Virus record (IMG/VR): IMGVR_UViG_3300036045_000169
Coordinates: 1-23,648 of that record
Source: a virus
Length of the DNA stretch: 23,648 bases
Direction: 5' to 3' (one strand)
Part shown: piece by piece, positions 3,683 to 23,648 of the stretch
Numbering within the stretch: the stretch's first letter is position 1
Layout: every line of letters begins with the position of its first letter
Notes under the pieces: generated by a model
The model's database searches: none
Seen by the model: only the letters and a program-made list of their open reading frames with translations
What the model was told of the DNA's origin: nothing
Program-made: the position numbers and the translations under genes

Positions 3683-5158
3683 ATGCTCTTGGCGGTCGAC
3701 AATAGCTGGACCTTCGTGCGGCAGGCTTCCGAAGAGGAGCTGCGCTGGCTCAACGAGTTTCTCTCCTTCGAGAACACCAAAGCAAAGTGGGCGAGGTCCC
3801 AGGGGTACAACGTCCAAGACCGGGTGAGGCTGCTTCGTGTTCGCCCGAACCTGGACCCTACGTTTCCGACCGGGCTGCTCTCGACCGTGGAAGCCGGTTG
3901 CGGGCGGGCGGGCTTCCGGGTGGACAAGCTCGAGCTGAGGGCGCCGATGCCGGAGTTTGACTTGAGCGCTCTGCGAGAAGCACCGTGGGAGATGGTGGGG
4001 GCGTACGCGCATCAGGTGGACGCGATCGAGCAGTGGCTCCTGGGAGGCCCCAGGATGGTCGCGCACCCGCAGCCGGGCCGCGGCATCATCTGGGCGCCCA
4101 CCGCGTCTGGGAAGGGCCGTATCGCGGCTGGGATAGCCCATGCGGTCCCTGGCCGCTGGCTCTTCGCCGTGCATCGGGGTCACCTCGCGCTCGACGTGCG
4201 GGGTCGCTGGGAGAAGCTGACGGGGACCGAGGCCGGCTTCATTGGGGACGGGCAGTGGACAGAGGGGGAGAGACTGACGTGTGCGACTCTCCAGTCCCTC
4301 TACGCCGCCAAGGGGACGCCGAGGTACGCGGGGCTCGTGGAGCGAGTTACGGGCGTGATCACGGATGAGAGTCACACGGCGCCCGCGGCGACCTTCTATT
4401 CCGTGCTCCAGTCTTTCCGAAACGCTCGGCTGAGAGTCGGGCTTTCGGGGACGCCGCTGGACCGGGGGGACAGGCGGTCGATGGTGGCGGTGGGCGCGAT
4501 CGGGCCGGTGGTGTACCGGATTCTTGCGAAGACGCTTCAGGACCGGGGGGTGCTGGCGGTGCCGACCGTGCGCATCGTGCCGGTGTACCAGTCCCTCCCG
4601 GATTTCTGCGAGTGGAGGCAGGTCTACGAGTCCCTGATCTGTCGGTCGAAGCATCGCAACGGTGCGGTGTTGGCGGCGATGGCGAAGGCCAAGGCGGAAG
4701 GGGAGGTGCCTGGGATCGTGTTCGTGCGGTCGGTAGACCATGGAAGGACGCTGACAAAGCTGGCGAATGCGCAGGGCATCACGACCAAGTTCGTGCATGG
4801 CTCGGCGACGCTGCCGGAGCGGAAGGCGGCGTGCCAGCAGCTCGAAAGCGGGCGCACGGATTTCATCGTCGCGACCAAGGTCTTTACGGAGGGAGTCGAC
4901 ATCCCCAGCCTTGCGACCGTGATCAATGCACAAGGGGGTAAGAGCGTGATCGATACCCTCCAGCAGATCGGTCGCGGAATGCGAGTCACGAAGAACAAAA
5001 CCACGGTGACGGTATGGGAGTTTGGGGACAAGGGGAATCCGTGGACGAACAGTCATGCCAAGGCGCGGGTGGCGGCTTGCCAGCGGGAGGGATATCGCTG
5101 CATCGTCGATCACACGCTTTGGCCCGAGAGGGCCACTGAAAGAACGCATCACCCATGA
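3683..5158 (+). CDS. SF2 DNA helicase, UvsW/RadD-like, 491 aa
   Basis: A DEAD/DEAH-type superfamily 2 helicase. Motif I is APTASGKG (138-145), motif II is DESH (228-231) and motif III is SGTP (255-258). The second RecA domain has ATKVFTEGVDIP (397-408) and motif VI QQIGRGMR (427-434). The last residue of the Walker A is Gly where Thr or Ser is normal. About 105 residues precede the helicase core, as in UvsW-type proteins with a small N-terminal domain. The ATG at 3683 lies 7 bases after the ParB-like stop; frames further upstream read poorly. Likely role: branch migration, R-loop or fork remodelling during recombination-dependent replication, next to the RecA and SbcCD genes in this window. 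Confidence 0.85.
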   Translation: MLLAVDNSWTFVRQASEEELRWLNEFLSFENTKAKWARSQGYNVQDRVRLLRVRPNLDPTFPTGLLSTVEAGCGRAGFRVDKLELRAPMPEFDLSALREAPWEMVGAYAHQVDAIEQWLLGGPRMVAHPQPGRGIIWAPTASGKGRIAAGIAHAVPGRWLFAVHRGHLALDVRGRWEKLTGTEAGFIGDGQWTEGERLTCATLQSLYAAKGTPRYAGLVERVTGVITDESHTAPAATFYSVLQSFRNARLRVGLSGTPLDRGDRRSMVAVGAIGPVVYRILAKTLQDRGVLAVPTVRIVPVYQSLPDFCEWRQVYESLICRSKHRNGAVLAAMAKAKAEGEVPGIVFVRSVDHGRTLTKLANAQGITTKFVHGSATLPERKAACQQLESGRTDFIVATKVFTEGVDIPSLATVINAQGGKSVIDTLQQIGRGMRVTKNKTTVTVWEFGDKGNPWTNSHAKARVAACQREGYRCIVDHTLWPERATERTHHP

Positions 5159-10030: not shown

Positions 10031-10323
10031 ACACCTTTGACGCCAAAGCCGTTGCCCTCGTCGCCCTCTTCGAGAGGCACTTCGGAATCAAGGTGCCGGA
10101 CGCCACCCGAGAAGCTCTCCTCGTCGACGCCAAGCGCGTTTTGCTCGCGACCGTCGATGAAATCGAAAAGTCCAAAGCGTATCACCTGGAAGTGATCTCG
10201 CGGACCTTGATGATGCTCATGGGGATGCTCGGAGTCTATGCCTCCACAGGTCAGCTCACCTCCGACCAGATCGATAAAATGATGGGCGCCTTTTCCCAGG
10301 ACCATAAAGCTCCGACCCCGTGA
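10027..10323 (+). CDS. Hypothetical protein, 98 aa
   Basis: A small, largely helical protein with ATGA overlap on its 5' side and GTGA overlap on its 3' side, where the polymerase starts. It has an amphipathic N-terminal half (ALVALFERHFGIKVPDATREALL) and a Met-rich hydrophobic patch, TLMMLMGMLGVYAS (about residues 60-73). That patch is a little short for a transmembrane helix. No family recognised; its position suggests a replication accessory. Confidence 0.6.
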   Translation: MNTFDAKAVALVALFERHFGIKVPDATREALLVDAKRVLLATVDEIEKSKAYHLEVISRTLMMLMGMLGVYASTGQLTSDQIDKMMGAFSQDHKAPTP

Positions 10324-12995
10324 AAGTCTTTCCGCTTCACGCCTCGCCTCGGGTCTATCCGATCGAGCGAGTGGACCCGTATCTGCGCGAGTCCACGTTT
10401 CTCGAAGAAGCACGAGACCGCGTCCTCGTGCTGACCGACGGGGACTTTTCGCCGAAGCAGGAAGAGCTGATTCGGGACACCGTGCAGCGTGTCACGGGAA
10501 AGCCGGCGCTGTTTCACGACTGGATGCACTATGACGTGACGCAGCCCGAAGGCATGGAAAAAGCGACACGCTACCTCGTGGCGTGTATCGAGCATCAGCG
10601 ACCTGGACGGATCTTGGCGTTCGGGGAGCGCACGGCAGAAATGCTCTGCGGCGAAGGTACAGGATGGGTCGAGCGCGTGACACGTCCCTGGGTCTGGCTC
10701 GGACAGACTCCGACCTTCTTTTTCCTTCGGGAGTTCACGAAGGTCCAAAAAGGGCTGCTGGACCAGGAACTCAGTTGGGCACTTCACCACAACCCGGATC
10801 CCGCACACTCCCTCAAGCAGCGCCAGTATTGCCAGATCGAGAACTCCCAAGACGCTCAAGCGTGCGTCGAAGCTTTGCACGGCCGCCGCGTTGCGCTCGA
10901 CGTGGAGACGTTCGGGAGGCTGGGCTCCCCGAATTTCAAGATCTCGACCCTCGCCCTCGTCGACATCGACGCGCCCGCTTCCCCGGCATGGGTCTGGCAG
11001 GAAGACTTCCTGCAACTCGACAGCCCGTGTCGCCACGCTCTCGTCCAGGTGCTCACCAACCTGTCGGCCGTCGGCGGCCACAACGTCAAGTTCGACCTGC
11101 GCGCAATTTCCAAAGCCCTGCGCCTCGACCCCTGCCGCCGCCCCGAAGTCCAGGTCATTGACACCTACGTCTGGGGCCGCCTGATCCAGGCCAACGGTCC
11201 CGGCAATCTGGACGACCTGTCTTTCCAAGTCGGCGAAGGCGGCCACAAGGCCGAAGCCCAAGAAGAACTCGCCAAACTGATCAAGGTCCTCCGAAGTCTT
11301 CGCACCGCCGCCGAGAAACCCGTCGCAACCGCCCACGCAATCCAGGAGCGCACTCTCGCCAACGGCCGCAAGCAGCGCCGTCAAGTTCCAACTGAGACCC
11401 GCCCCCCAACCCCGACTGAGCGCCTCAACCGGATCGTGACCCAGTGGCGAACAAGCGCATGGGGGGACTCCGAATCCATGGCCGGTTACGGCAACATGCC
11501 CTCGGGCGACTGGCTCACCGCCGTCGATGACACATCCTCCGACCCCGAGGTCTACGTCTACGGCCTCATGGAGCCCAATCTGCGCGCCCGCTACTGCGCC
11601 CGCGACACGGTCTCGACCGCGCTGCTCGCCCGCCACTACGAACCCCTCGTAGAGCCCTACCGCGAGCTGCTGGATAGTCACCTCGCGCGTGCTTCATGGT
11701 CGATCGGGAAAGTCGAACAGCGCGGCCTCCAAGTCTCCGTTCCCGAGATCCAGCAATTCAGTGACCAGCTCACCCGCAAATCCGACGAACTGCTCGCCCA
11801 TATCTTGCTCTACGCACCGGATCTCAACCCAGGATCCCACAAAAGCCTGTCAGAGTACCTGTACTCGTCTCTGAGAACGGGTGGCCTCGACCTCGCCCCG
11901 ATCTCCTACACCGCCAGAGGAGCCCTCTCCACCGACAAGGACACGCTCGCCCGCCTCGCCGACCAGCATCCCGTCATCCCCCTCGTCCAAGCCTGGAAGG
12001 AAGCCGAGAAGCTCCAGAGCACCTACGCCCGCGGTCTCCTCCCCCACGTCGACCCCGACCAGCGCGTCCGGTGCAGCTTCAACATCATGGGCGCCGAATC
12101 CGGCCGCATGAGCTGCTCCTCCCCCAACCTCCAAACCCTCCCCTCTCGCGGCCTGTACGCCAAGCAGGCCAAACGCATCTATCGCGCCTCCCCAGGCTAC
12201 CAGTTCCTCCAGTTCGATTACAAGACCCTGGAGGTCCGCGTCGCCGCCATGCTCTCCGGCGACTCCGCCATGATCGAGATCTTCAAGACCGGCGAAGACC
12301 CCCACAAGCGCACTGCCCAACTGATCTCAGACATGGTCTGGAAAAGCCCCTTCGAGACCTGCGGCGGCCTCACCGGCGAAGCCCTCGCCGAAGAACAGAA
12401 ACGACGCCGCCAAGTCTGCAAAACCATCAACTTCGCCCTGATCTACGGCAGCTCCACCAAAAGCATCGCCGAAGCCGCCGGCATCAGCGACGCCGAAGCC
12501 GAACTCGCCAAAGAGATCGTGCTCGGCAGGTTCTCCGGCCTTGCACGCTGGATCCGGCGCACGATCTACGCTGCCAAGCAAACCGGCGTTGCCCACACCT
12601 ACTGGAACGGCAAGAAGGCCCGTGCACGTCCCCTGTCCGCGATCTACAGCACCGACAAGGCCAACGTCTCCCGCGGCGAACGCCAAGCCTACAACACCCC
12701 GATCCAGGGCACCGGCCACGAATACTGCCTCGCCAGCGGCGTCCAGGCCGTGACCTGGATCCTGAACGAAGGCATCGACGCCTACCTCGTGCTCCTGATT
12801 CACGACTCCCTCTTCTTTGAAGTCGCCCACCACGAGATCGATGCCTTTGTGCCCGAGATCAAACGGATCATGACCTCGCACTACACCCCGCACGACGTCC
12901 CGCTAGAAGTCGACGTAGAGATCGGGCCAACTTGGGGAGACCTCCGTCCCTACGGGACGCCAGCCCCAAGCGCGCAAGAAGGAGTAGCCCCATGA
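10320..12995 (+). CDS. DNA polymerase I, family A, with 3'-5' exonuclease, 891 aa
   Basis: Starts at GTG 10320 inside the previous stop codon. Residues 1-155 are not a 5'-nuclease; RILAFGERTAEML (97-109) and the following segment recall the inactive uracil-glycosylase-like fold at the N-terminus of some phage polymerases. The proofreading exonuclease has D194 and E196 (ALDVETFG), N255 to D259 (HNVKFDL) and Y425 to D429 (YCARD). Polymerase motif A is DYKTLEVR (633-640, D633 and E638). Motif B is R697-x3-K701 to Y709 with Phe at 705, the position of E. coli F762. Motif C is HDS (828-830), where Glu normally follows the catalytic Asp. A charged insert sits between the exonuclease motifs (about 303-415). 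It should be the replicative polymerase of this phage. Confidence 0.93.
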   Translation: MKVFPLHASPRVYPIERVDPYLRESTFLEEARDRVLVLTDGDFSPKQEELIRDTVQRVTGKPALFHDWMHYDVTQPEGMEKATRYLVACIEHQRPGRILAFGERTAEMLCGEGTGWVERVTRPWVWLGQTPTFFFLREFTKVQKGLLDQELSWALHHNPDPAHSLKQRQYCQIENSQDAQACVEALHGRRVALDVETFGRLGSPNFKISTLALVDIDAPASPAWVWQEDFLQLDSPCRHALVQVLTNLSAVGGHNVKFDLRAISKALRLDPCRRPEVQVIDTYVWGRLIQANGPGNLDDLSFQVGEGGHKAEAQEELAKLIKVLRSLRTAAEKPVATAHAIQERTLANGRKQRRQVPTETRPPTPTERLNRIVTQWRTSAWGDSESMAGYGNMPSGDWLTAVDDTSSDPEVYVYGLMEPNLRARYCARDTVSTALLARHYEPLVEPYRELLDSHLARASWSIGKVEQRGLQVSVPEIQQFSDQLTRKSDELLAHILLYAPDLNPGSHKSLSEYLYSSLRTGGLDLAPISYTARGALSTDKDTLARLADQHPVIPLVQAWKEAEKLQSTYARGLLPHVDPDQRVRCSFNIMGAESGRMSCSSPNLQTLPSRGLYAKQAKRIYRASPGYQFLQFDYKTLEVRVAAMLSGDSAMIEIFKTGEDPHKRTAQLISDMVWKSPFETCGGLTGEALAEEQKRRRQVCKTINFALIYGSSTKSIAEAAGISDAEAELAKEIVLGRFSGLARWIRRTIYAAKQTGVAHTYWNGKKARARPLSAIYSTDKANVSRGERQAYNTPIQGTGHEYCLASGVQAVTWILNEGIDAYLVLLIHDSLFFEVAHHEIDAFVPEIKRIMTSHYTPHDVPLEVDVEIGPTWGDLRPYGTPAPSAQEGVAP

Positions 12996-13429
12996 CCCAG
13001 ATCCACGACGAAACCTTCGACGACTACCTCGCCCAGTGCGTCATGATCAATGAGCACGACATCAACGCCGAGTTCGTCCGCGTCTCCGCGGACATGGCAT
13101 ACTGGGTCCGAAAAGCCGCCCAGACCGAGCGCGCCTTTCTTCTCGCCAAACACAAGGTCAAAGACTGCGAAGCCACCGCCTACCTCCAAGCTCGTGAACT
13201 CCTCGACAACGACCCCGCCATCAAACGCCCCACCGAAGCCCTCGTCGAAGCCACCGCCTCCAAGATGCCGGCGCCCGCCAAGGCCCGCGAAGAACTCGCC
13301 GAACTCGCCGCCCAACGCGAAGAGCTGAAAGGCTACCTCGAAGCCATCAAAACCAAGCGCGACTCCCTGATCTCGCTCGGCGCCATGCTCCGGCGCGAGA
13401 TGCAGCTCGACCCCGCGATCCGGTCCTGA
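12992..13429 (+). CDS. UvsY-like recombination mediator candidate, 145 aa
   Basis: The ATG at 12992 overlaps the polymerase stop codon. The protein is almost all helix: an N-terminal segment with INAEFVRVSADMAYWVRKA, a long charged helix, KRPTEALVEATA, and a C-terminal coiled-coil-like part with ELAAQREELKGYLEAIKTKR. Length (145 aa; T4 UvsY is 137) and this order of helices resemble phage UvsY proteins, which load RecA-like recombinase onto SSB-coated single strands. The next two genes are a gp32-like SSB and RecA, the natural partners. Similarity is by eye only; a generic coiled-coil protein remains possible. Confidence 0.5.
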   Translation: MTQIHDETFDDYLAQCVMINEHDINAEFVRVSADMAYWVRKAAQTERAFLLAKHKVKDCEATAYLQARELLDNDPAIKRPTEALVEATASKMPAPAKAREELAELAAQREELKGYLEAIKTKRDSLISLGAMLRREMQLDPAIRS

Positions 13430-13503
13430 ACTACCCTTCTTCCACCGAACCCCAATCCACCAACTTCCGAACCAACTCTTTTCCAAACACCTGAGACCTC
13501 AAC

Positions 13504-14427
13504 ATGCCCTCCCGCCGAAGCCCAGCACCCGCCGACCAGCCCCTTTCCTACATCGAGTTTGACATCAACGAAGTCGAGAAGAACCTCGAACAGGAGAAGA
13601 TCGATTCCGACACATCCCTCTTCTTCTCGGCCCCCATGGGCGAGTCGCAGGTTCGGGTCATTCCGCCGCTCGCCGCTTGGGCTCCCAAGTTCGCCGCGAT
13701 CGACAAGAAGCCCGACCCGTTCTTCGTGTTCTGGAAGCACTTCTTCGCGCGTCCCGACGACCCCCAAAGCTACGTCTCGGTCCCGTGCCCCAAGAAAAAC
13801 GTCGGGCAGCGGTGCGCGATCTGCGATGAAGTGGACCGGCTCGCCGAGACCGGCGACGTAACCGACTACGAGCTGTCGCAGGACATGCAGGCCAAGCGCC
13901 GTTTCCTCGTCAACGTCATCGACCGTGATCGCGAAGCCCTCGGTCCCATGATCTACGAAGCCAGCTACCCGTGGCGGAAGTGGAACGGCAAGAGCGTGTA
14001 CGAAAAGATCCAAGCCCTGATGACCGGCCGCGCCCGCGTCAACCTCGTGACTCCGAGTCCTCAAGGCTTTGATCTCCTCATCAAGCGCGAAGGCAAGGGG
14101 CGCACCGGCACGAACTACTCGTTCCAGGCCGCCCGAAATCCGAGCCCCTTGTCCGAGGACCCCGAGCAAATGCTCAACTGGATCCAGAACCAACACGATC
14201 TCTGGGAGCACATCGCGATCCCCACCGAGGCTCAGGTCCGCGCCGTCATGGAAGGCAAGGCCATGAGCCCCAACATGCTCAACCCCGATGGGTCACTCAA
14301 GGGGGGCGCTCGTCGAGGTCCGCCAGTACCGGCCGTCCAGCATCACGAGCAGACTCGGCGCCCGGCCCTCCCGGAGGCCGCCACGTCGAGCTATCCCGAC
14401 GATGACCTCGACGAGATTCCGTTCTGA
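13504..14427 (+). CDS. Single-stranded DNA-binding protein, T4 gp32-like with zinc site, 307 aa
   Basis: A gp32-type zinc site is visible: H79, then C95, C104 and C107 (H-x15-C-x8-C-x2-C), within FWKHFFARPDDPQS and VPCPKKNVGQRCAICDEVD. The surrounding RVIPPLAAWAPKF, RRFLVNVIDRD and YPWRKWNGKSVYEKI fit the core of gp32-like proteins. A Pro/Ala-rich linker (270-295) leads to an acidic tail ending DDDLDEIPF. This looks like the DDDIPF tip of bacterial SSB. It would coat single strands and recruit partners through the tail. The gene starts after a 74-base G-poor leader without a Shine-Dalgarno, so it begins a new translational unit, and it overlaps recA by 1 bp. Confidence 0.8.
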   Translation: MPSRRSPAPADQPLSYIEFDINEVEKNLEQEKIDSDTSLFFSAPMGESQVRVIPPLAAWAPKFAAIDKKPDPFFVFWKHFFARPDDPQSYVSVPCPKKNVGQRCAICDEVDRLAETGDVTDYELSQDMQAKRRFLVNVIDRDREALGPMIYEASYPWRKWNGKSVYEKIQALMTGRARVNLVTPSPQGFDLLIKREGKGRTGTNYSFQAARNPSPLSEDPEQMLNWIQNQHDLWEHIAIPTEAQVRAVMEGKAMSPNMLNPDGSLKGGARRGPPVPAVQHHEQTRRPALPEAATSSYPDDDLDEIPF

Positions 14428-15410
14428 TGGCCAAGAAGCAACCCGCCCCCGAACCTCCTCGCTCCACTGCGTTTGCCGCGATCGTCGCCAAGTACGGCCC
14501 GAACTCAATCTCGAAGCTTGGGATCGGCCCCGAACAGCAGTACCGCACCGTCAGCACGGGCTCGGTGCAGCTTGACAAAGCGATCGGGATAGGCGGCCTC
14601 CCACGGGGCCGGATCGTGGAAGTGTTCGGCGTGGAGTCGGGCGGGAAGACCACGCTCTGCCTTCACGCCATCGCCAGCGCTCAAGCTCAGGGGCTCCAAG
14701 CGGCGTTCATCGACGCCGAGCACTCCCTCGACCCTTCGTACGCCAAAGCGCTGGGCGTCGACACCAAGGCGCTGACGTTCGCGCAACCAGACTCCGGGGA
14801 ACAAGCTCTCGGAATCGTGGACATGATTGCGAAGGCCGGCGACCACGGGATCGTGGTGGTCGACTCGGTGGCGGCGCTGACCCCTCGGGCTGAGCTGGAC
14901 GGCGAGATCGAGGACCAGCACGTCGGAACTCAAGCGCGCATGATGAGCCGTGCGCTCCGGCGCCTCGCCTCCTCGGCCGCTCACACCGGAACGCTCGTGA
15001 TCTTCGTGAACCAGCTCCGTCAAAAGATCGGAGTCCGGTTCGGCAACCCCGAAACCACCCCCGGCGGCAACGCGCTCAAGTATTACTCCAGCGTGCGCTT
15101 GGACGTTCGCCGGATCACGATGCTCAAGGACGGCGATACCCCGATCGGGATGCAGACCCGCGCCAAGGTCGTGAAAAACAAGTGCGCGCCCCCGTTCGGC
15201 GAAGCGGTCTTCGACATCTTGTTCGGCAAGGGCATCGACCAGGGCTCTGAGCTGCTCGACCTGGCTCTTGAAGCCGGCCTGCTCACCAAAGCCGGCGCCT
15301 GGTTCTCGCACGGCGAAACCCGGATCGGGCAAGGTCGGAAGGCCGCCTGCGAATACATGCTCGCTCACCCCAAGCTACGCACCGAGCTTTCCAAGAAAAA
15401 CAGCCCGTGA
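14427..15410 (+). CDS. recA: RecA recombinase, bacterial type, 327 aa
   Basis: Clear RecA. Walker A is GVESGGKT (68-75, canonical GPESSGKT), and the catalytic Glu is E97 in FIDAEHSLDP. Walker B is GIVVVD (141-146), and the L2 region runs through NQLRQKIGVRFGNPETTPGG (195-214), followed by LKYYSSVRLDVRR. The C-terminal domain is present but short, without a long acidic tail. It is closer to cellular RecA than to T4 UvsX. It would form filaments for strand exchange with the SSB and the UvsY-like protein encoded just upstream. The ATG overlaps the SSB stop codon by one base (TGATG). Confidence 0.95.
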   Translation: MAKKQPAPEPPRSTAFAAIVAKYGPNSISKLGIGPEQQYRTVSTGSVQLDKAIGIGGLPRGRIVEVFGVESGGKTTLCLHAIASAQAQGLQAAFIDAEHSLDPSYAKALGVDTKALTFAQPDSGEQALGIVDMIAKAGDHGIVVVDSVAALTPRAELDGEIEDQHVGTQARMMSRALRRLASSAAHTGTLVIFVNQLRQKIGVRFGNPETTPGGNALKYYSSVRLDVRRITMLKDGDTPIGMQTRAKVVKNKCAPPFGEAVFDILFGKGIDQGSELLDLALEAGLLTKAGAWFSHGETRIGQGRKAACEYMLAHPKLRTELSKKNSP

Positions 15411-16588
15411 AGTACCTGATTCTCGCCGACATTCACTACGCCAATCACCGCGTCCTGGGAGGCCCCTTCGACGAAGACGGCATCAACGAGCGCGCTCGCC
15501 GGATCGATGAATCCTTCCGCTCCGCTCTCGAAACTGCCCACGACATCGGTGTGGACCACCTGATCGTGGCGGGCGACATCTTCGACTCGTGCAACGCATC
15601 CCCCCAGCTCGTCGCCCTCGTGCAGCGCTCCCTCACCAATCCGCTGACCGAGAAACGCCGCGTCCCGATCCTGATCCCAGGCAACCACGACCGCGGGCGC
15701 GGCACCGGAGAAGACCACGCGCTCGCACCTCTGCGCCCGCTGGCGTACGTCGCGACGAAGCCAGGCTCCCACCAAGTCAACATCGACGGCGAGTGCTGCC
15801 TCGTCCCTTACACCGCCGGCCAGACCGGGGAGTCCGTGCTCCAGGCGTTCCGAGAGCACGGCGCAAAGGCTGCGCTGTGGGTCGGTCACTGCGGGATCTC
15901 GGATGAGTCAACGGCACCGTGGCTCCGGGAAGGCGACCGGCACTTGCCCGTCCGGGCCGTGTTCGAGGCGATGAAGGAGACCAAGGCCATCGTCGCCGTC
16001 TTCGGCGACTGGCACGAACACCGGGAATGGACTGAGGTCCACGAAGGCCGCACGCTGCACGTGGTCCAGTGCGGCGCCTTCGTCCCGACCGGCTTCGACA
16101 ATCCCTCCACGATCGAGAACTTGGACGATCTCTGCGACCCCTACGGCTCGATCCTGCTCCTGGAGATCGATGGCTCCGAAGAAGACGGCTGGACGCTCAA
16201 GCACTCCCCGAACCTCCAGTGCTTCCCGATCTCAGGACCACGCTTCGTGAAAGTGACCTCGATCGAGGAAGCTCTCGAAGCGAAGAAGGCTGCGGAAGTC
16301 GGCGCCCCGCATCACCTCTACCTCCGCTACATGCAGCCCTTCGAGACTTATAGCGCCGAGAACACCCGAGCTTTGCAAGAGGCCGTCGGCCCCGATGTGC
16401 GCGTCGACTCACAACCGCTGGCCGCCAAGTCGCTCCAGCGCGCCGCAGTCGCGCAAGAAGTGCAGCGCACCAAGTCTCTCGACCAGGCGCTCTCGACTTA
16501 CGTCTCTTCGACCGAGTACCAAGGCTCGCCGGACAAAGAGAAGGTGCTCCAAGCTGCCCGCGATCTCGTGAAGGGGGCTGCCCCTTGA
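15407..16588 (+). CDS. sbcD: SbcD/Mre11-type nuclease (T4 gp47-like), 393 aa
   Basis: A calcineurin-like phosphoesterase with the full metal set: D8-x-H10 (ADIHY), D57 (GDIFD), N93-H94-D95 (PGNHDR), H161 (VGHCG) and H203-x-H205 (GDWHEH). This is the Mre11/SbcD order. The start is GTG at 15407 within the recA stop codon (GTGA). With the SbcC/Rad50-like partner it should process double-strand ends to make 3' single-strand tails for RecA. The C-terminal part (about 320-393) is helical and probably docks on the partner's coiled coil. It is slightly longer than T4 gp47. Confidence 0.92.
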   Translation: MKYLILADIHYANHRVLGGPFDEDGINERARRIDESFRSALETAHDIGVDHLIVAGDIFDSCNASPQLVALVQRSLTNPLTEKRRVPILIPGNHDRGRGTGEDHALAPLRPLAYVATKPGSHQVNIDGECCLVPYTAGQTGESVLQAFREHGAKAALWVGHCGISDESTAPWLREGDRHLPVRAVFEAMKETKAIVAVFGDWHEHREWTEVHEGRTLHVVQCGAFVPTGFDNPSTIENLDDLCDPYGSILLLEIDGSEEDGWTLKHSPNLQCFPISGPRFVKVTSIEEALEAKKAAEVGAPHHLYLRYMQPFETYSAENTRALQEAVGPDVRVDSQPLAAKSLQRAAVAQEVQRTKSLDQALSTYVSSTEYQGSPDKEKVLQAARDLVKGAAP

Positions 16589-18279
16589 TCGTGCGGCGCA
16601 TCACGCTCCGGGGCGTCACGACGCACGAAGCGCTGGACCTTCAACTGCCCCCGCGTGGCGTCGTGCTCGTCACTGGCACCAACGGCTCGGGCAAAAGCAC
16701 CCTTGTTGAGGCCACTCCGCTGGCGGTCTGGGGGAAAACTCTCCGGGGCGCGCAAGTCTGGTCCAGCAGCGATTCCTCGTGCGCCGTGGAGTTCGCGGAC
16801 CCGTCTTCCGACGGAGCGACCTACGAAGCCGTCCGGCGCAACAAGGGCGCCGTCAAGCTCTCCCACGGCCCCACCAACACCCGCGACCGCCCTACCCGCG
16901 ACACCACCACCAAGGCCCAAGAAGCGCTGGACCAGGTAGTCCGGCTCTCGTTCGACCAGTGGCGCCGCGCGTGCGTGCTCTCCAGCTCCGACGCATCGAG
17001 CTTCACGCAGGCGTCCGACGCCGAGCGCAAGCGCCTGGTCGAGGAAATGGTCGGGACAGAACGCCTGGAAGTCGCATACCGCGCCGCGCGCGAGAAGCAC
17101 AAGAGCTTCCAGGTCCAGCACCTACAGCTCACGTCCGAGCTGGCCGTCGTTGACGAGCGGATCTCGGGCCTCCACCAGCAGATCCAGGGTCTCACCGAAG
17201 TGCTCCAACACGAGCGCGCGCCAGCCCCTCCAGAGAACATCAAGCAGCCCCTACCGCCCCAAGAAGTCGAGCGGCTCTCCAAGCTCCATCGGCAAGTGCT
17301 CGATGAAGTCGCGCAAGTCGAAAAGTCGCTGCGTCAGCAGGACCAGGAACAAGTCCAGGCCCGCGCCGCCTACTTTTCGGCGATGAAACACGCCGAGCGG
17401 CTGCGCGATGACTTGTGCCCGACCTGCGGCCAACCGATCTCGGAGCACCTGCGCCACGAACTCGCACGCGACGTGCAAGCCGCCGAAAAGACTGCGCAAG
17501 AAGCTGACGCCCACGCCGAAGCTCGCCGCAAGGAGAATGCGCAGGAAGTCGAAGATCTGCACCAAGAAGCCAAGGCGTTGCAGGACAAGCTCGAGCAAGA
17601 CCGGAGTGCTCGCGCCGCGCATCAAGCCTACGAGCGCGAACTCGCCAAGGCCCAAGCCCAGAACACCAAGATTCCCGAACAGCTCAGCGTGGCTCACAAG
17701 GCGCTCGAACTCGCAGAGAGCAAGCGAGAGGCCCTCGAAGCCACGCGCGAGGAGTGCGCGCACAACGAGGTGAACTACCGCGCGGTCGTGCAGACGCTCT
17801 CGACTCGCGGCGTGCGCGCCCTTCTTCTCCAGGGCGCACTCGACCAGGTCGAGAAGGTCTCGAACTATTGGCTGACCCGGATCTGCGAGGGGCGGTACCG
17901 CCTCAAGCTCTCGTCCACGGAAACCAAGAAGGACGGGGAAGCCCGCGACGTGGTCTCGCTCAAGGTCGAAGCCGACACCGAAGTCGGGGGCGGTCGAGGC
18001 TACGAAAGCCTCAGCGGCGGGGAGCGCCGCCGTGTCGACATCGCGCTGACGCTGGCGCTCTCTCAAGTCGCCGAGGCCATGACCGGCGCCGAAGGCTCGA
18101 CTCTGTTCTGCGACGAGATCTTCGATGCGCTCGATGACCAGGGCATCCGGGATTGCTGTGACGTTTTGCGCGAGATCTCGAAAGACCGGTGCGTGGTCGT
18201 GATCTCGCACAGCCCGAGCCCGGACCTGCGGGACTGCGCTTCGACCGTGCTAAGCCTCCGACCCCCGGAAGCCGCATGA
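16585..18279 (+). CDS. sbcC: SbcC/Rad50-type ATPase (T4 gp46-like), 564 aa
   Basis: The start is TTG at 16585 in the SbcD stop codon (TTGA). Walker A is GTNGSGKST (31-39). Two coiled-coil arms flank a zinc hook, C278-P-T-C281. The ABC signature is LSGGERRRVD (476-485), and Walker B has D510-E511 (FCDEIFDALDD). The length is close to T4 gp46 (about 560 aa) and about half that of E. coli SbcC, so the coiled coils are short. It forms the ATPase half of the end-resection complex with the upstream nuclease. Close coupling between the two genes fits a fixed ratio of subunits. Confidence 0.93.
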   Translation: MIVRRITLRGVTTHEALDLQLPPRGVVLVTGTNGSGKSTLVEATPLAVWGKTLRGAQVWSSSDSSCAVEFADPSSDGATYEAVRRNKGAVKLSHGPTNTRDRPTRDTTTKAQEALDQVVRLSFDQWRRACVLSSSDASSFTQASDAERKRLVEEMVGTERLEVAYRAAREKHKSFQVQHLQLTSELAVVDERISGLHQQIQGLTEVLQHERAPAPPENIKQPLPPQEVERLSKLHRQVLDEVAQVEKSLRQQDQEQVQARAAYFSAMKHAERLRDDLCPTCGQPISEHLRHELARDVQAAEKTAQEADAHAEARRKENAQEVEDLHQEAKALQDKLEQDRSARAAHQAYERELAKAQAQNTKIPEQLSVAHKALELAESKREALEATREECAHNEVNYRAVVQTLSTRGVRALLLQGALDQVEKVSNYWLTRICEGRYRLKLSSTETKKDGEARDVVSLKVEADTEVGGGRGYESLSGGERRRVDIALTLALSQVAEAMTGAEGSTLFCDEIFDALDDQGIRDCCDVLREISKDRCVVVISHSPSPDLRDCASTVLSLRPPEAA

Positions 18280-18926
18280 TCTGGATCCTACAAGCCCTCC
18301 TTTCATTCTTCGGCCCTCCGGGCCAAGTCGGCCAGTGCAACCCCGAACAGGGCGAGCCCTACACCTGGTCGCAGGAAGTCCGGGAAGAGACCCGGCAGCG
18401 CGTACAGGATACGTGTCGCGCCGTCGGAGCCTCCGATGCCGTGTGCGCCTTTGCGGACTCGGTCGTAGTCCGGGAAAGCTCGGGGCGCCCCGGAGTTCGT
18501 CACACCAAGGGGCCCGGCGAACACGGGCTCGGCCCGATGGGGCTCTCGCTCCGATGGCACGCCGACAAGTGGCCAGGTCAGGACGAGGACCCCATGTTCT
18601 GTCTGCCCGAGGTCAGCTTCCTGGTCGCGCTCGCGGTCTGGAGAAGCGCCGTGACGCGGTACGGGGCCAAGACCCTGCTCGACGTGCAGGCTGTCTACGC
18701 GGGCAACTGGACCTGCTACGAAGACGCCCACGGGCATCGCCGGTGCCGCGCCACCCCGACCGCCGGCACTCGGAGCGCGATCTGCCACCGCCTGCAGATC
18801 CGGGGTCATTCCTGCACCGCCAAGATCTCGCTTGCGGACTTCGGCCGACGTGTCCCGTTCCGGGAGCGCCGCGCCTTCGCGCTCGACCTGATCTCACGCC
18901 GAGAAGAGGGCGACCTTGATCCGTGA
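18276..18926 (+). CDS. Secreted lytic-transglycosylase-like protein, 216 aa
   Basis: The ATG at 18276 overlaps the sbcC stop codon. The N-terminus MIWILQALLSFFG is short and hydrophobic and may be a signal peptide. VVVRESSGRPGVRH (63-76, candidate catalytic E67) followed by HGLGPMGLSLRW (83-94) resembles the E-S-x-G ... G-L-x-Q pattern of SLT/lysozyme-fold enzymes. Eight cysteines after the start (C21, C47, C57, C109, C147, C157, C170, C180) suggest an oxidised, extracytoplasmic protein. It may be a lysin or a virion-associated peptidoglycan enzyme. The enzyme call is by motif only; the fold is not proven. Confidence 0.5.
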   Translation: MIWILQALLSFFGPPGQVGQCNPEQGEPYTWSQEVREETRQRVQDTCRAVGASDAVCAFADSVVVRESSGRPGVRHTKGPGEHGLGPMGLSLRWHADKWPGQDEDPMFCLPEVSFLVALAVWRSAVTRYGAKTLLDVQAVYAGNWTCYEDAHGHRRCRATPTAGTRSAICHRLQIRGHSCTAKISLADFGRRVPFRERRAFALDLISRREEGDLDP

Positions 18927-20099: not shown

Positions 20100-20338
20100 G
20101 AGTCATGGACCTTCGCCCCATCCCAGGCACCGATGGCTACGAGATCGATGCAGACGGTACGGTCTACCGCTGCGACGGGTCTCGGCGTGTCATCGTGCCT
20201 CTGGATCGGAATGGAAGGTTCCGCGTCCAGGCAGGGAACGGAGAGCCAGATTTCGATCTTTGCGCTTATGTTGCAAAGTTAGTCCTCTTCCCGACCGAAT
20301 TGGCCGAGGCAGGCAGGGGGCCGCGTTGGGCGAGGTGA
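20096..20338 (+). CDS. NUMOD4-like protein, possible remnant of an HNH endonuclease, 80 aa
   Basis: IPGTDGYEIDADGTVYRCDG (9-28) matches the opening of NUMOD4 domains, which sit at the N-terminus of phage homing-type HNH endonucleases; the following VPLDRNGRFRVQAG fits the same fold. The HNH catalytic part expected after AYVAKLVLFP (57-66) is absent. The ATG at 20096 overlaps the previous stop codon. The last 149 bases overlap the end of a gene on the opposite strand, so this may be a truncated endonuclease gene or a stand-alone DNA-binding domain. Confidence 0.55.
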   Translation: MRVMDLRPIPGTDGYEIDADGTVYRCDGSRRVIVPLDRNGRFRVQAGNGEPDFDLCAYVAKLVLFPTELAEAGRGPRWAR

Positions 20339-20720
20339 TGAAGATCGGGGTCGGGTCGACCTCCTCACCGCGCTTCTTCTCGATCTTTTGGTGCGCTGCC
20401 CAGCCCTTCGTCACGAGGTCTTCGGCCATTTTTACCGATGCCACGAGCTCGTCCATTTCGTACTGGCGGATTCGGATCTGCTCGTGAAGGATCCATTGAT
20501 CGTTCATGCGCTTCCATTTCGTGAACCAGTACACGATCGTGTTCTCGAAGGTGCCCTCGCGCAGGCCGACGATGAGCAGGTCCATCCAGCCTCCTTGGCG
20601 TGTGCTCCCGATCTGGACGGTGCCGAGGTGAAGCACGCGCTTCCCGGTCCGGTCTGTGCGGGACCAGCGGAGTTCCTGGGGGTCGAATATGATCGAGGTT
20701 CCTCGCTCGACGAACGGCAT
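20190..20720 (-). CDS. Unknown - strand protein, 176 aa
   Basis: The only convincing gene on the - strand. Residues 1 to about 130 have natural composition and GC-rich third positions, including WMDLLIVGLREGTFENTIVYW and EQIRIRQYEMDELVASVKMA. The last 45 codons lose that codon pattern and overlap the NUMOD4-like gene, so the C-terminus may be a read-through into foreign frame. The ATG at 20720 is preceded on its own strand by TACAAT, 5 bases upstream, and gaggg touching the start codon. No family recognised. Strand and codon use mark it as a possible late insertion (a moron). Confidence 0.6.
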   Translation of the reverse strand: MPFVERGTSIIFDPQELRWSRTDRTGKRVLHLGTVQIGSTRQGGWMDLLIVGLREGTFENTIVYWFTKWKRMNDQWILHEQIRIRQYEMDELVASVKMAEDLVTKGWAAHQKIEKKRGEEVDPTPIFITSPNAAPCLPRPIRSGRGLTLQHKRKDRNLALRSLPGRGTFHSDPEAR

Positions 20721-20770: not shown

Positions 20771-21193
20771 ATGAGCAAAGACCCCGGACTCGGCCTCAGC
20801 AACAGCAACCTCTCTTCTCTTCGCACGGACGTGGATCGTCCGCACGTCGAGTACACGCTCCCGGAGAACAAGATCTCGCGGTTCTTCCAGCAGCAGGGCT
20901 TCGAGAAGGAAGACTTGACGTTTCGCATGATCGAGATCTCGCCGGCACAGCAGGACCGGGCGGCGAAGACGGCGAACAACAACCCGTCTGTGCTGTCGCG
21001 GGAGCTGCTCTTCGCGTCGCTGTGGCAGGTTGGCTCGTGGAGCGGGCGCGACAACCGGGACAAGCTGGCGAAGTGGTGGGAAGCGATCGGGACGAAGGGG
21101 CGGCGCTACGTCGAGGCGGCGTTCATGGAGATGCAGTCGGTCGAGGAGGCCGACGTGGAGTCCTTTCTCGCTTCCGGGCGCGCGAAGAGCTAG
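20771..21193 (+). CDS. Tail assembly chaperone candidate, lambda gpG-like position, 140 aa
   Basis: Begins at ATG 20771 after a leader with few G and no clear Shine-Dalgarno. It is an acidic-to-neutral helical protein, ending in YVEAAFMEMQSVEEADVESF. Its length (140 aa, like lambda gpG) and its place two frames before the tape-measure gene fit a tail assembly chaperone. Those proteins bind the tape-measure protein during tail assembly, and a longer frameshifted form is made in small amounts. A second coding frame continues past its stop codon, which supports the assignment. Sequence similarity to named chaperones was not tested. Confidence 0.55.
   Translation: MSKDPGLGLSNSNLSSLRTDVDRPHVEYTLPENKISRFFQQQGFEKEDLTFRMIEISPAQQDRAAKTANNNPSVLSRELLFASLWQVGSWSGRDNRDKLAKWWEAIGTKGRRYVEAAFMEMQSVEEADVESFLASGRAKS
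21157..21167 (+). promoter_or_regulatory. Candidate +1 programmed ribosomal frameshift site
   Basis: Within the chaperone gene, in frame, the sequence reads GGAG, then TCC TTT C. A Phe tRNA on TTT can slip one base forward onto TTC, a better match to anticodon GAA. The downstream frame is exactly one base forward. GGAG (21157-21160) sits 3 bases upstream of TTT, the same spacing as the internal Shine-Dalgarno in the bacterial RF2 gene. TCC TTT C is also the core of the influenza PA-X +1 site. Confidence 0.4.
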
Positions 21194-21242
21194 CGCGGAG
21201 AGTGGCTCGGAGGAGCCGGCTGTCTGGGTTCATTCGCCGGTC

Positions 21243-21554
21243 ATGGGGCGCGTGGGCGGCGTGCTGTTCACGCAGCCTCCCTCGTCGCGCCGGGACATCA
21301 CAGAGCCCTACGAGCTGGCCTGGGAGCGGGCGAAGTGGCTCATGCAGGATGGACTCTTGCGCAAGGTCGTGTGGCCGACTTGGGAGCACGTGGTCTTCGT
21401 GGCCCGGTACGCCTGCCAGCCGATCTCGGAAGTCGAGCACTGGCCGCGGAGCAAGGTGCTGCGCGTGTCCAGGCTGACATCGGACATGTTGAAGGAGGAG
21501 GCGCGTCAGTCGGCGCTTCCGGCGTCTGCGACGCACACCGGGGGCGCGTGGTAG
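21243..21554 (+). CDS. Tail assembly chaperone extension (gpT-like frame), 103 aa from ATG
   Basis: This frame is coding-like from before the 21193 stop codon (bases 21168 onward) to 21554, with natural segments PYELAWERAKWLMQDGLL and EHVVFVARYACQPISEVEHW. The first ATG is at 21243, but the good Shine-Dalgarno GGAGGAG (21209-21215) lies 27 bases before it, too far for normal use. Third-position GC is also high between 21194 and 21242. The likely product is therefore a fusion from the preceding gene by +1 frameshift at 21164-21167, as in lambda gpGT. Independent translation from 21243 is the alternative. Confidence 0.5.
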   Translation: MGRVGGVLFTQPPSSRRDITEPYELAWERAKWLMQDGLLRKVVWPTWEHVVFVARYACQPISEVEHWPRSKVLRVSRLTSDMLKEEARQSALPASATHTGGAW

Positions 21555-21577: not shown

Positions 21578-23648
21578 ATGCAAGGGATCGAGTACTACGT
21601 CCGGGCGGTTCTCGACTTCACGAAGTCGGCGGCGTCGTCGGCGAACCTCCAGAAGTTCAGCGAAAGCCTGATCTCGGCCGGCCAGAAGTTCCAGGCGGCG
21701 GGCGACCGGATGATCGGGTCGACGTTTCGGATCGCGGCGGGGTTTGCGAAGGCGGCGGCATCGGCGGGTCTGATCGGGGGGGCGCTGGGGCTTGGGCGCG
21801 CGATCATGTCCGGGGTGAAGTTCAACGAGCAGCTCGAAACCATGAAGTACAGCATGGCGAGCACGCTTCAGCTCATGGGGCATTCGTCCGGCGACTTCGC
21901 GCGCAACCTGGATGTGAGTCAGGCGGCGATGGACAAGCTCTACATGATTGCGGCGGCGTCGCCCGCGACGTTCGAGCAGACTTCGCAGATGTTCAACAAC
22001 ATGCTTCCGGGTGCCAGGTCGGTGACCGGAAACATGGAAGAGATCCTGCAACTCACCAAGGAGTCTCTCGCGCTCGGCATGATTATGGGCGGGGACTTTG
22101 CGACGACCGGGTCGCAGCTCAGCCGGATCTTGACGGGTGGTGCGGGTGCGGATTTCGAGACGTGGAAGGTGCTCCAGAAACCGATCATGGACGCCGGCAA
22201 GGCGGCGGGGTACTTTTCGGAGAACCTCCAGATGGGGACGAAGCTGACGGAGAAATTCAATCGACTCTCCCCGGAGCAGCGGCTCGAACTCACGAAGAAG
22301 GCGATGGAGAAGCTCGGTGTTGCGACCGACGCATTCGGAACGACGTGGGCCGGCCTGATCTCGACCGTGGAATCCGACTTCCAGATCTTGAAGAAGGCGC
22401 TCGGCAAGTCGGTGTTCGAGAAGATTAAGGAGCAGGTCGGGCAGATGGCGGCGCTAGGTTCTGGCGGTGTGCTGGACCCTGAGGGAGAGACCATGGCCAA
22501 GCTGACGAGCTTTGCGTCGTTCATCGGGGACAAGCTCGGCAACGTGACGCAGCGGCTCCTCAAGGGGCTGGAGAAATTCATCACCAACTTTGCGGACAAT
22601 TGGCAGTTCTACGTCGAGAAGTTCGGGGAGTACGCGGACCTGGTATTCCGGGCTGGCAAGGCGTTTCTCAAGGCCAAGGTCGCGATGGCGGGCGCGGGTG
22701 TTGCCGCCAAAGCGGTCGGGGTCGGGGTCCAGGGTGCGGGGATGGCGTACGAGGGGCTCAAAACGATCTGGCCGTTGATCCAGAAAATGGGGATCTGGTC
22801 TCTGGTCCTGGTCCCGATCTTGGCCATTCTCGGAACGGCCCTGATTGCGGTCGGCGCGATCTTTGCGGGCATCGGGGCGTACGTGGTGACGAAGTGGAAA
22901 GAGATCTATTCGGCGGTGGAGTCGGGAGCGGTTCACTTTCAGCCGCTCTTCGATGCGATCGATCATTTCTGGGCCAAGCTGGTTGCGTTGGGCGGGACGT
23001 TCTTCCAAGGAGGCACTACCACGAGCATGGTTCAGAGTGCGGTGGACATGCTCACCAATGCGCTCTACGGACTGATGGGCGTGATCTCGTTCGGGCTTCG
23101 TGTACTTGGCGTGTTCCAGTTTGTTTTCAACGCCGTACAGATGGGGCTTCGCACGATCTATCTGGGTTTCACGTACATCATCACGGGCATCGTGACCATG
23201 ATCAAGGGGGCATTGGAGTACCTTCCCGGCATGGACGGGGTGGCGGCGAATCTCCAGACTACGCTCAACAACCTCAACAAATCGTCTCAGAAAACCCTTG
23301 GGAACATTATGATGGACTCGCAGGAATCCACCGCCATGTTCGAGCGGGCGCGCGCGTTTGACGATGCGTTTGCGACTCCTGGCACCGGCCCATCGGAAGC
23401 GATCAAGAAGGCTGCTCAGAGCTGGATCGATGAAGCCCAGAAGAAGATGGACGATGATCTGCTCAAGGGCGAGAGCGCCAAGAGCCCCAAAGTACCCAAA
23501 GGCGGCAACGTCCACATTCACAAAATGGTCGTGAATCAGGACCTCCGAAACCACGACCCGGACAGGATTATCGGTGCATTCTATAGCGCCGTCGACAAGA
23601 GCATCCGCAACCGCACGCAATCTCTCGCCCAGGCGGAACAGGGAACCT
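21578..23648 (+). CDS. Tape measure protein, 3'-truncated by the window edge, at least 690 aa
   Basis: Open from ATG 21578 to the end of the window. The N-terminus has long helices and then SGVKFNEQLETMKYSMASTL and MIAAASPATFEQTSQMFNNM, typical of tape measure N-terminal domains. Two hydrophobic blocks follow: SLVLVPILAILGTALIAVGA (around 407-426), and a stretch around 490-530 with GLMGVISFGLRVLGVFQF and YLGFTYIITGIVTM. The last visible part, NHDPDRIIGAFYSAV, resembles the C-terminal end of such proteins, so little is probably missing. Tape measure proteins set tail length and enter the host membrane during DNA injection. At least 690 residues predict a tail of roughly 100 nm by the usual length rule. 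The chaperone pair upstream supports the call. Confidence 0.85.
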   Translation, partial: MQGIEYYVRAVLDFTKSAASSANLQKFSESLISAGQKFQAAGDRMIGSTFRIAAGFAKAAASAGLIGGALGLGRAIMSGVKFNEQLETMKYSMASTLQLMGHSSGDFARNLDVSQAAMDKLYMIAAASPATFEQTSQMFNNMLPGARSVTGNMEEILQLTKESLALGMIMGGDFATTGSQLSRILTGGAGADFETWKVLQKPIMDAGKAAGYFSENLQMGTKLTEKFNRLSPEQRLELTKKAMEKLGVATDAFGTTWAGLISTVESDFQILKKALGKSVFEKIKEQVGQMAALGSGGVLDPEGETMAKLTSFASFIGDKLGNVTQRLLKGLEKFITNFADNWQFYVEKFGEYADLVFRAGKAFLKAKVAMAGAGVAAKAVGVGVQGAGMAYEGLKTIWPLIQKMGIWSLVLVPILAILGTALIAVGAIFAGIGAYVVTKWKEIYSAVESGAVHFQPLFDAIDHFWAKLVALGGTFFQGGTTTSMVQSAVDMLTNALYGLMGVISFGLRVLGVFQFVFNAVQMGLRTIYLGFTYIITGIVTMIKGALEYLPGMDGVAANLQTTLNNLNKSSQKTLGNIMMDSQESTAMFERARAFDDAFATPGTGPSEAIKKAAQSWIDEAQKKMDDDLLKGESAKSPKVPKGGNVHIHKMVVNQDLRNHDPDRIIGAFYSAVDKSIRNRTQSLAQAEQGT

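Follow-up and report, generated by a model that had tools for sequence, protein, structure and literature searches.

A probable +1 frameshift at a conserved UUU_C in a viral tail assembly chaperone gene

The window (the whole 23,648-base stretch of viral DNA that was analyzed) ends in a tape-measure gene, and two overlapping plus-strand frames, ORF1 and ORF2, lie directly 5' of it (Table 1). Open reading frame translation showed that the frame of ORF2 is +1 relative to ORF1, and that the +1 frame of the window is open from 20931 and ends at 21554. The coordinates and offset given in a preliminary description of this DNA were therefore correct. The lambda-type arrangement, with a -1 downstream frame and an X_XXY_YYZ heptamer, was not found, as the downstream frame is +1. 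Close to the end of ORF1, the window reads TCC TTT C (21161-21167); the UUU (21164-21166) is in frame with ORF1 and, together with the C at 21167, allows re-pairing to UUC. The tape-measure product gave a weak match to the model PF20155 TMP_3 (E value of 1.6e-4) that fell short of the Pfam cut-off. Elsewhere in the window, a replication and repair block (10320-18279; PolA, RecA, and SbcD- and SbcC-like genes) adjoins the tail genes, and contig L018 has this block at 33-56% identity. The protein encoded at 18189-18926, which from its motif we take to be possibly a lysozyme or transglycosylase, is 50% identical to one in contig L017 (14268-14897), and in both cases an SbcC-like gene comes immediately before. 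The contig opens (1-127) with a perfect tandem array of a 15-base unit in 8.5 copies, which encodes a GESED repeat; the later part of the open frame that begins with this repeat resembles, on our own reading, a VWA-type domain.

Table 1. Positions in the window of the two frames, the proposed slip site, and neighbouring elements
Feature	Position	Strand	Remarks
ORF1	20771..21193	+	ATG start, TAG stop, 140 aa; likely tail assembly chaperone, lambda gpG-like short product
AGGAGG	21144..21149	+	Fully complementary to the anti-SD; 14 nt before UUU; putative stimulator
GGAG	21157..21160	+	Three bases before UUU; RF2-like stimulator of the preliminary description; GGAA in L019/L020
UUU_C	21164..21167	+	Proposed +1 slip site, tRNA-Phe UUU to UUC; kept in L019/L020; rare in frame
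ORF2	21165..21554	+	Proposed +1-frame extension, gpT-like part of fused product; fused product would be 260 aa
ORF1 stop TAG	21191..21193	+	Shortly 3' of slip codon
ATG	21243..21245	+	Only ATG/GTG/TTG start of ORF2 just 3' of slip; without well-placed SD; not conserved in L019/L020
Tape-measure gene	21578..23647	+	Reaches window end

The query that found relatives was the N-terminal portion of the tape measure. Two virus contigs, L019 and L020, were the only ones found, and as they are near-identical, they represent one independent comparison lineage only. Their tape-measure protein matches PF20155 TMP_3 at 6e-5. Identity to the window was 50% over the full length of the tape measure, 64% in ORF1, and 36% in ORF2; the 36% identity of ORF2 to L019 was obtained over the entire frame and so also covers the residues upstream of every start codon. 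Gene order and the +1 offset are common to the window, L019, and L020. The minus-strand ORF before the chaperone pair (20190-20720) has a weakly similar counterpart in L019, in the corresponding position and also on the minus strand (4504-4947; E value of 4e-4 in a pairwise comparison). No relatives were found when virus contigs were scanned with ORF1, ORF2, or the full tape-measure protein singly, in tblastn searches of named phages with ORF1, the tape-measure protein, and their L019 homologues, in a tblastn search of plasmids with the L019 tape-measure protein, or in two scans of genome contigs. With the conserved EEADVE-x-F region written as a degenerate DNA pattern, 58 stretches were detected, among which the real relatives were the L019 and L020 records only, and no homologous tail module was present in the searched records of phage contigs linked through RecA or SbcC.

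The structure predicted for ORF1 had a mean pLDDT of 72.5. When its model was compared with 350,542 PDB chains, the first three matches were to YqbN (3klu) and the HK97 tail assembly chaperone (2ob9), with individually weak E values of 0.34-0.67, and several annotated tail assembly chaperones were among the viral structure matches. The sequence libraries and family models searched with ORF1 did not recognise it as a chaperone. Taken together, position and predicted structure suggest that ORF1 is likely a tail chaperone; with the conservation of the locus, they support the proposal in the preliminary description of a tail-chaperone pair that shifts into the +1 frame. For ORF2, the predicted structure was of poor quality, and no useful match resulted. 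Arthrobacter phage Salgado, which was examined after a structural match, had no chaperone annotated as joined in the part examined.

We compared the sequence around the end of ORF1 in the window (GAG TCC TTT CTC GCT) with that in L019 (GAA AAC TTT CTG GCT). UUU_C occurs at the same codon in L019 and L020, where both frames also persist, so that the slip codon and the next base passed the homologue alignment that had been suggested as a check, but the UCC before them and the close GGAG did not. This conservation favors UUU to UUC slippage in the P site, which had been put forward from the window sequence, as the best candidate. The likeness to the influenza PA-X core that had been seen in the window holds for UUU_C only, since the UCC in the E site is AAC in L019 and L020, and the A site has CUC (window) or CUG (L019) in place of CGN. 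A slow codon is not evident at the A site, because CTC and CTG are both common.

In-frame TTT-C is rare, amounting to 0.23% of codons in the window and 0.06% in L019, where the one instance among the 1,606 codons counted is the slip-site codon itself. The chance of finding one in a 21-codon overlap is about 5% for the window and 1% for L019. In L019, the +1 frame is kept closed by a TGA up to a point 21 codons ahead of the ORF1 stop; a shift must therefore fall in the short overlap, which contains UUU_C. Right after the slip codon, the +1 frames of the window and L019 align (F-LPG..R); over the first 26 residues, none of 2000 shuffles was as good, whereas the other two frames over this stretch did not align (P = 0.34 and 0.14). 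The aligned stretch includes bases before the ORF1 stop, where start codons are absent. Two codons beyond UUU, the window and L019 both have GCT, a rare codon for Ala, as would be expected if its third base doubles as part of a Leu codon in the +1 frame.

We consider these data to be best explained by a +1 frameshift at the UUU_C of a tail assembly chaperone gene, and this reading to be probable. ORF1 and ORF2 would be a single gene read two ways. The majority of ribosomes would terminate at the end of ORF1 and release the short chaperone. In a minority, tRNA-Phe in the P site on UUU would slip one base forward onto UUC, and translation would continue in the ORF2 frame to give a fused protein of about 260 residues. 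By analogy with lambda gpG and gpGT, the short form would coat the tape measure, and the fused form would recruit tail tube subunits.

The start codons of ORF2 bear on the alternative that it is translated independently, as a separate protein, from a start of its own (ATG 21243 in the window, GTG 5401 in L019) and that no frameshift occurs, which we regard as unlikely. Start codons are indeed present in ORF2 of both the window and L019, and the GTG of L019 has a GGAG six bases upstream. However, the two starts are not homologous, as in the protein alignment the window has a GTC where L019 has its GTG, and L019 a non-start codon where the window has its ATG, and the two sequences share no ORF2 start codon. 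The ATG at 21243 indeed has no well-placed Shine-Dalgarno sequence, as had been stated before, and between the slip codon and this ATG the ORF2 frame has no ATG, GTG, TTG, or CTG. Protein-level similarity (F-LPG) also reaches upstream of both starts, although the stretch from the ORF1 stop to ATG 21243, aligned alone, was only suggestive and not significant (P = 0.098).

The elements upstream of UUU_C were also analyzed. In the window as in L019, no site in ORF1 pairs more strongly with the anti-SD than AGGAGG (-11.8 kcal/mol), which lies in a 31-nt stretch just 5' of the slip codon that is identical in the two. Identical synonymous codons numbered 11 of 12 next to the slip site, in comparison with 37 of 66 upstream (Fisher P = 0.017, for a region chosen after the alignment had been seen), and the length of the longest run of identical codons was not significant by permutation (P = 0.17). 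The nucleotide conservation before the slip codon is thus supportive of a site there, and not strong. The close GGAG, which had been likened to the RF2 stimulator at 3 nt, did not hold up, because it is GGAA in L019 and L020 and its predicted anti-SD pairing falls from -5.9 kcal/mol in the window to -3.3 kcal/mol in L019. AGGAGG was considered as the Shine-Dalgarno sequence of a start site and dropped, as the ORF2 frame has no ATG, GTG, or TTG near it. RNA folding downstream of the slip codon gave GC-rich hairpins in both the window and L019, with no recognisable shared structure.

Shine-Dalgarno-like elements favor backward shifts at about 10-14 nt and forward shifts at 3 nt. AGGAGG may stimulate slippage here, although it lies at a spacing usually tied to backward shifts. 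The same spacing would suit a -2 ribosomal frameshift at or near UUU_C, as in phage Mu, which had been named earlier as an alternative; it lands in the same frame and would give a fused product one residue longer. A similar chaperone site is labelled putative -2 in the newer GenBank records of HRTV-14, HJTV-1, and HCTV-6. However, none of the tRNAs near the site would find a good match after moving back by two bases. For tRNA-Phe, a step of one base forward gives perfect pairing with UUC, whereas a step of two bases back would place it on CCU (window) or ACU (L019), which favors +1 over -2. At the UUU_C of influenza PA-X, mass spectrometry gave a +1 and no -2 peptide (PMC3498833). We rate a -2 shift as unlikely, and slightly less probable than separate initiation of ORF2; these two are the chief rivals of the +1 reading.

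Among the conserved codons, only UUU_C and the GGG four codons after UUU can re-pair forward. A +1 shift at another codon, for example at this GGG, is very improbable, because GGG to GGC re-pairing is worse than UUU to UUC and the conserved +1-frame Leu-Pro, including the wobble base of the rare GCT, lies upstream of GGG. That the frame offset stems from a broken gene or from an error in sequencing or assembly, as might be thought of for a virus record from a metagenome-based collection, is hardly credible, because L019 and L020, which are separate contigs of diverged sequence, have the same +1 offset.

A +1 frameshift at UUU_C can be compared with several known systems. Lambda gpG/gpGT likewise comprises a short and a fused chaperone from one gene before the tape measure, with a frameshift near the end of the upstream frame (PMC5009743), but uses -1 tandem slippage. 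The -2 frameshift of the Mu chaperone reaches the same target frame (PMC5009743), but good -2 re-pairing is absent at the window site. The influenza A PA-X site, UCC_UUU_CGU, in which a +1 shift was established by mass spectrometry, has the same UUU_C and P-site slippage of tRNA-Phe (PMC3498833), with the UCC also present in the window; it differs in its eukaryotic ribosome and unrelated gene, and UCC is not conserved and CGN is absent in the phage lineage. The prfB (RF2) gene also shifts +1, and the window has a GGAG three bases before the P-site codon, but this GGAG is not conserved in the lineage of the window, in which the A site is a Leu codon.

A close parallel is found in the haloarchaeal Hafunaviridae. 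Tailed phages use -1, -2, or +1 shifts at the tail chaperone gene, and the chaperone of HSTV-2 is very likely shifted +1 (Atkins et al., 2016, PMC5009743). Thus, +1 chaperone frameshifting has already been reported, and the proposed site in the window adds another case. On the direction in hafunaviruses the sources disagree, since this review gives very likely +1 for HSTV-2 and newer records give -2. We compared the hafunavirus chaperone records KC117376, MZ334492, MN901521, MZ334509, AY190604, MZ334519, and OK649958. The pairs are annotated as frameshifted and have an in-frame TTT_CGC in the overlap (14982-15813 of L085, and L086-L091); the overlap reads AAG TCC TTT CGC in HSTV-2 and AAG TTT CGC AGA TAG in the other hafunaviruses, the two groups being 52-53% identical at the protein level. 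As in the window, the chaperone pair lies directly before the tape-measure gene, the downstream frame is +1, and UUU_C stands near the end of the upstream frame (TCC_TTT_CGC or AAG_TTT_CGC) with a purine-rich stretch upstream. In contrast with the window, the hosts are archaeal, the A site is CGC as in PA-X, where the window and L019 have CUC and CUG, and a better anti-SD site than the upstream purine stretch exists elsewhere in the ORF. No homology was detectable between ORF1 of HSTV-2 and ORF1 of the window, and UUU_C may thus have arisen by convergence in the two, or be an ancient feature whose common origin is unrecognised. We tentatively suggest, as a possibility rather than an expectation, that UUU_C has evolved repeatedly and separately as a +1 slip site of tail chaperones in unrelated bacterial phages and haloarchaeal viruses, aided in the phage lineage by AGGAGG at 14 nt. 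The proportions of two proteins that control tail assembly are set by the frameshift in the tail chaperone gene, and the majority of those described are -1. The presence of UUU_C in the overlaps of this phage lineage and of the haloarchaeal chaperones provides a simple motif that can be tested in the +1 class, which is poorly catalogued, and that is also useful for annotating split chaperone genes.
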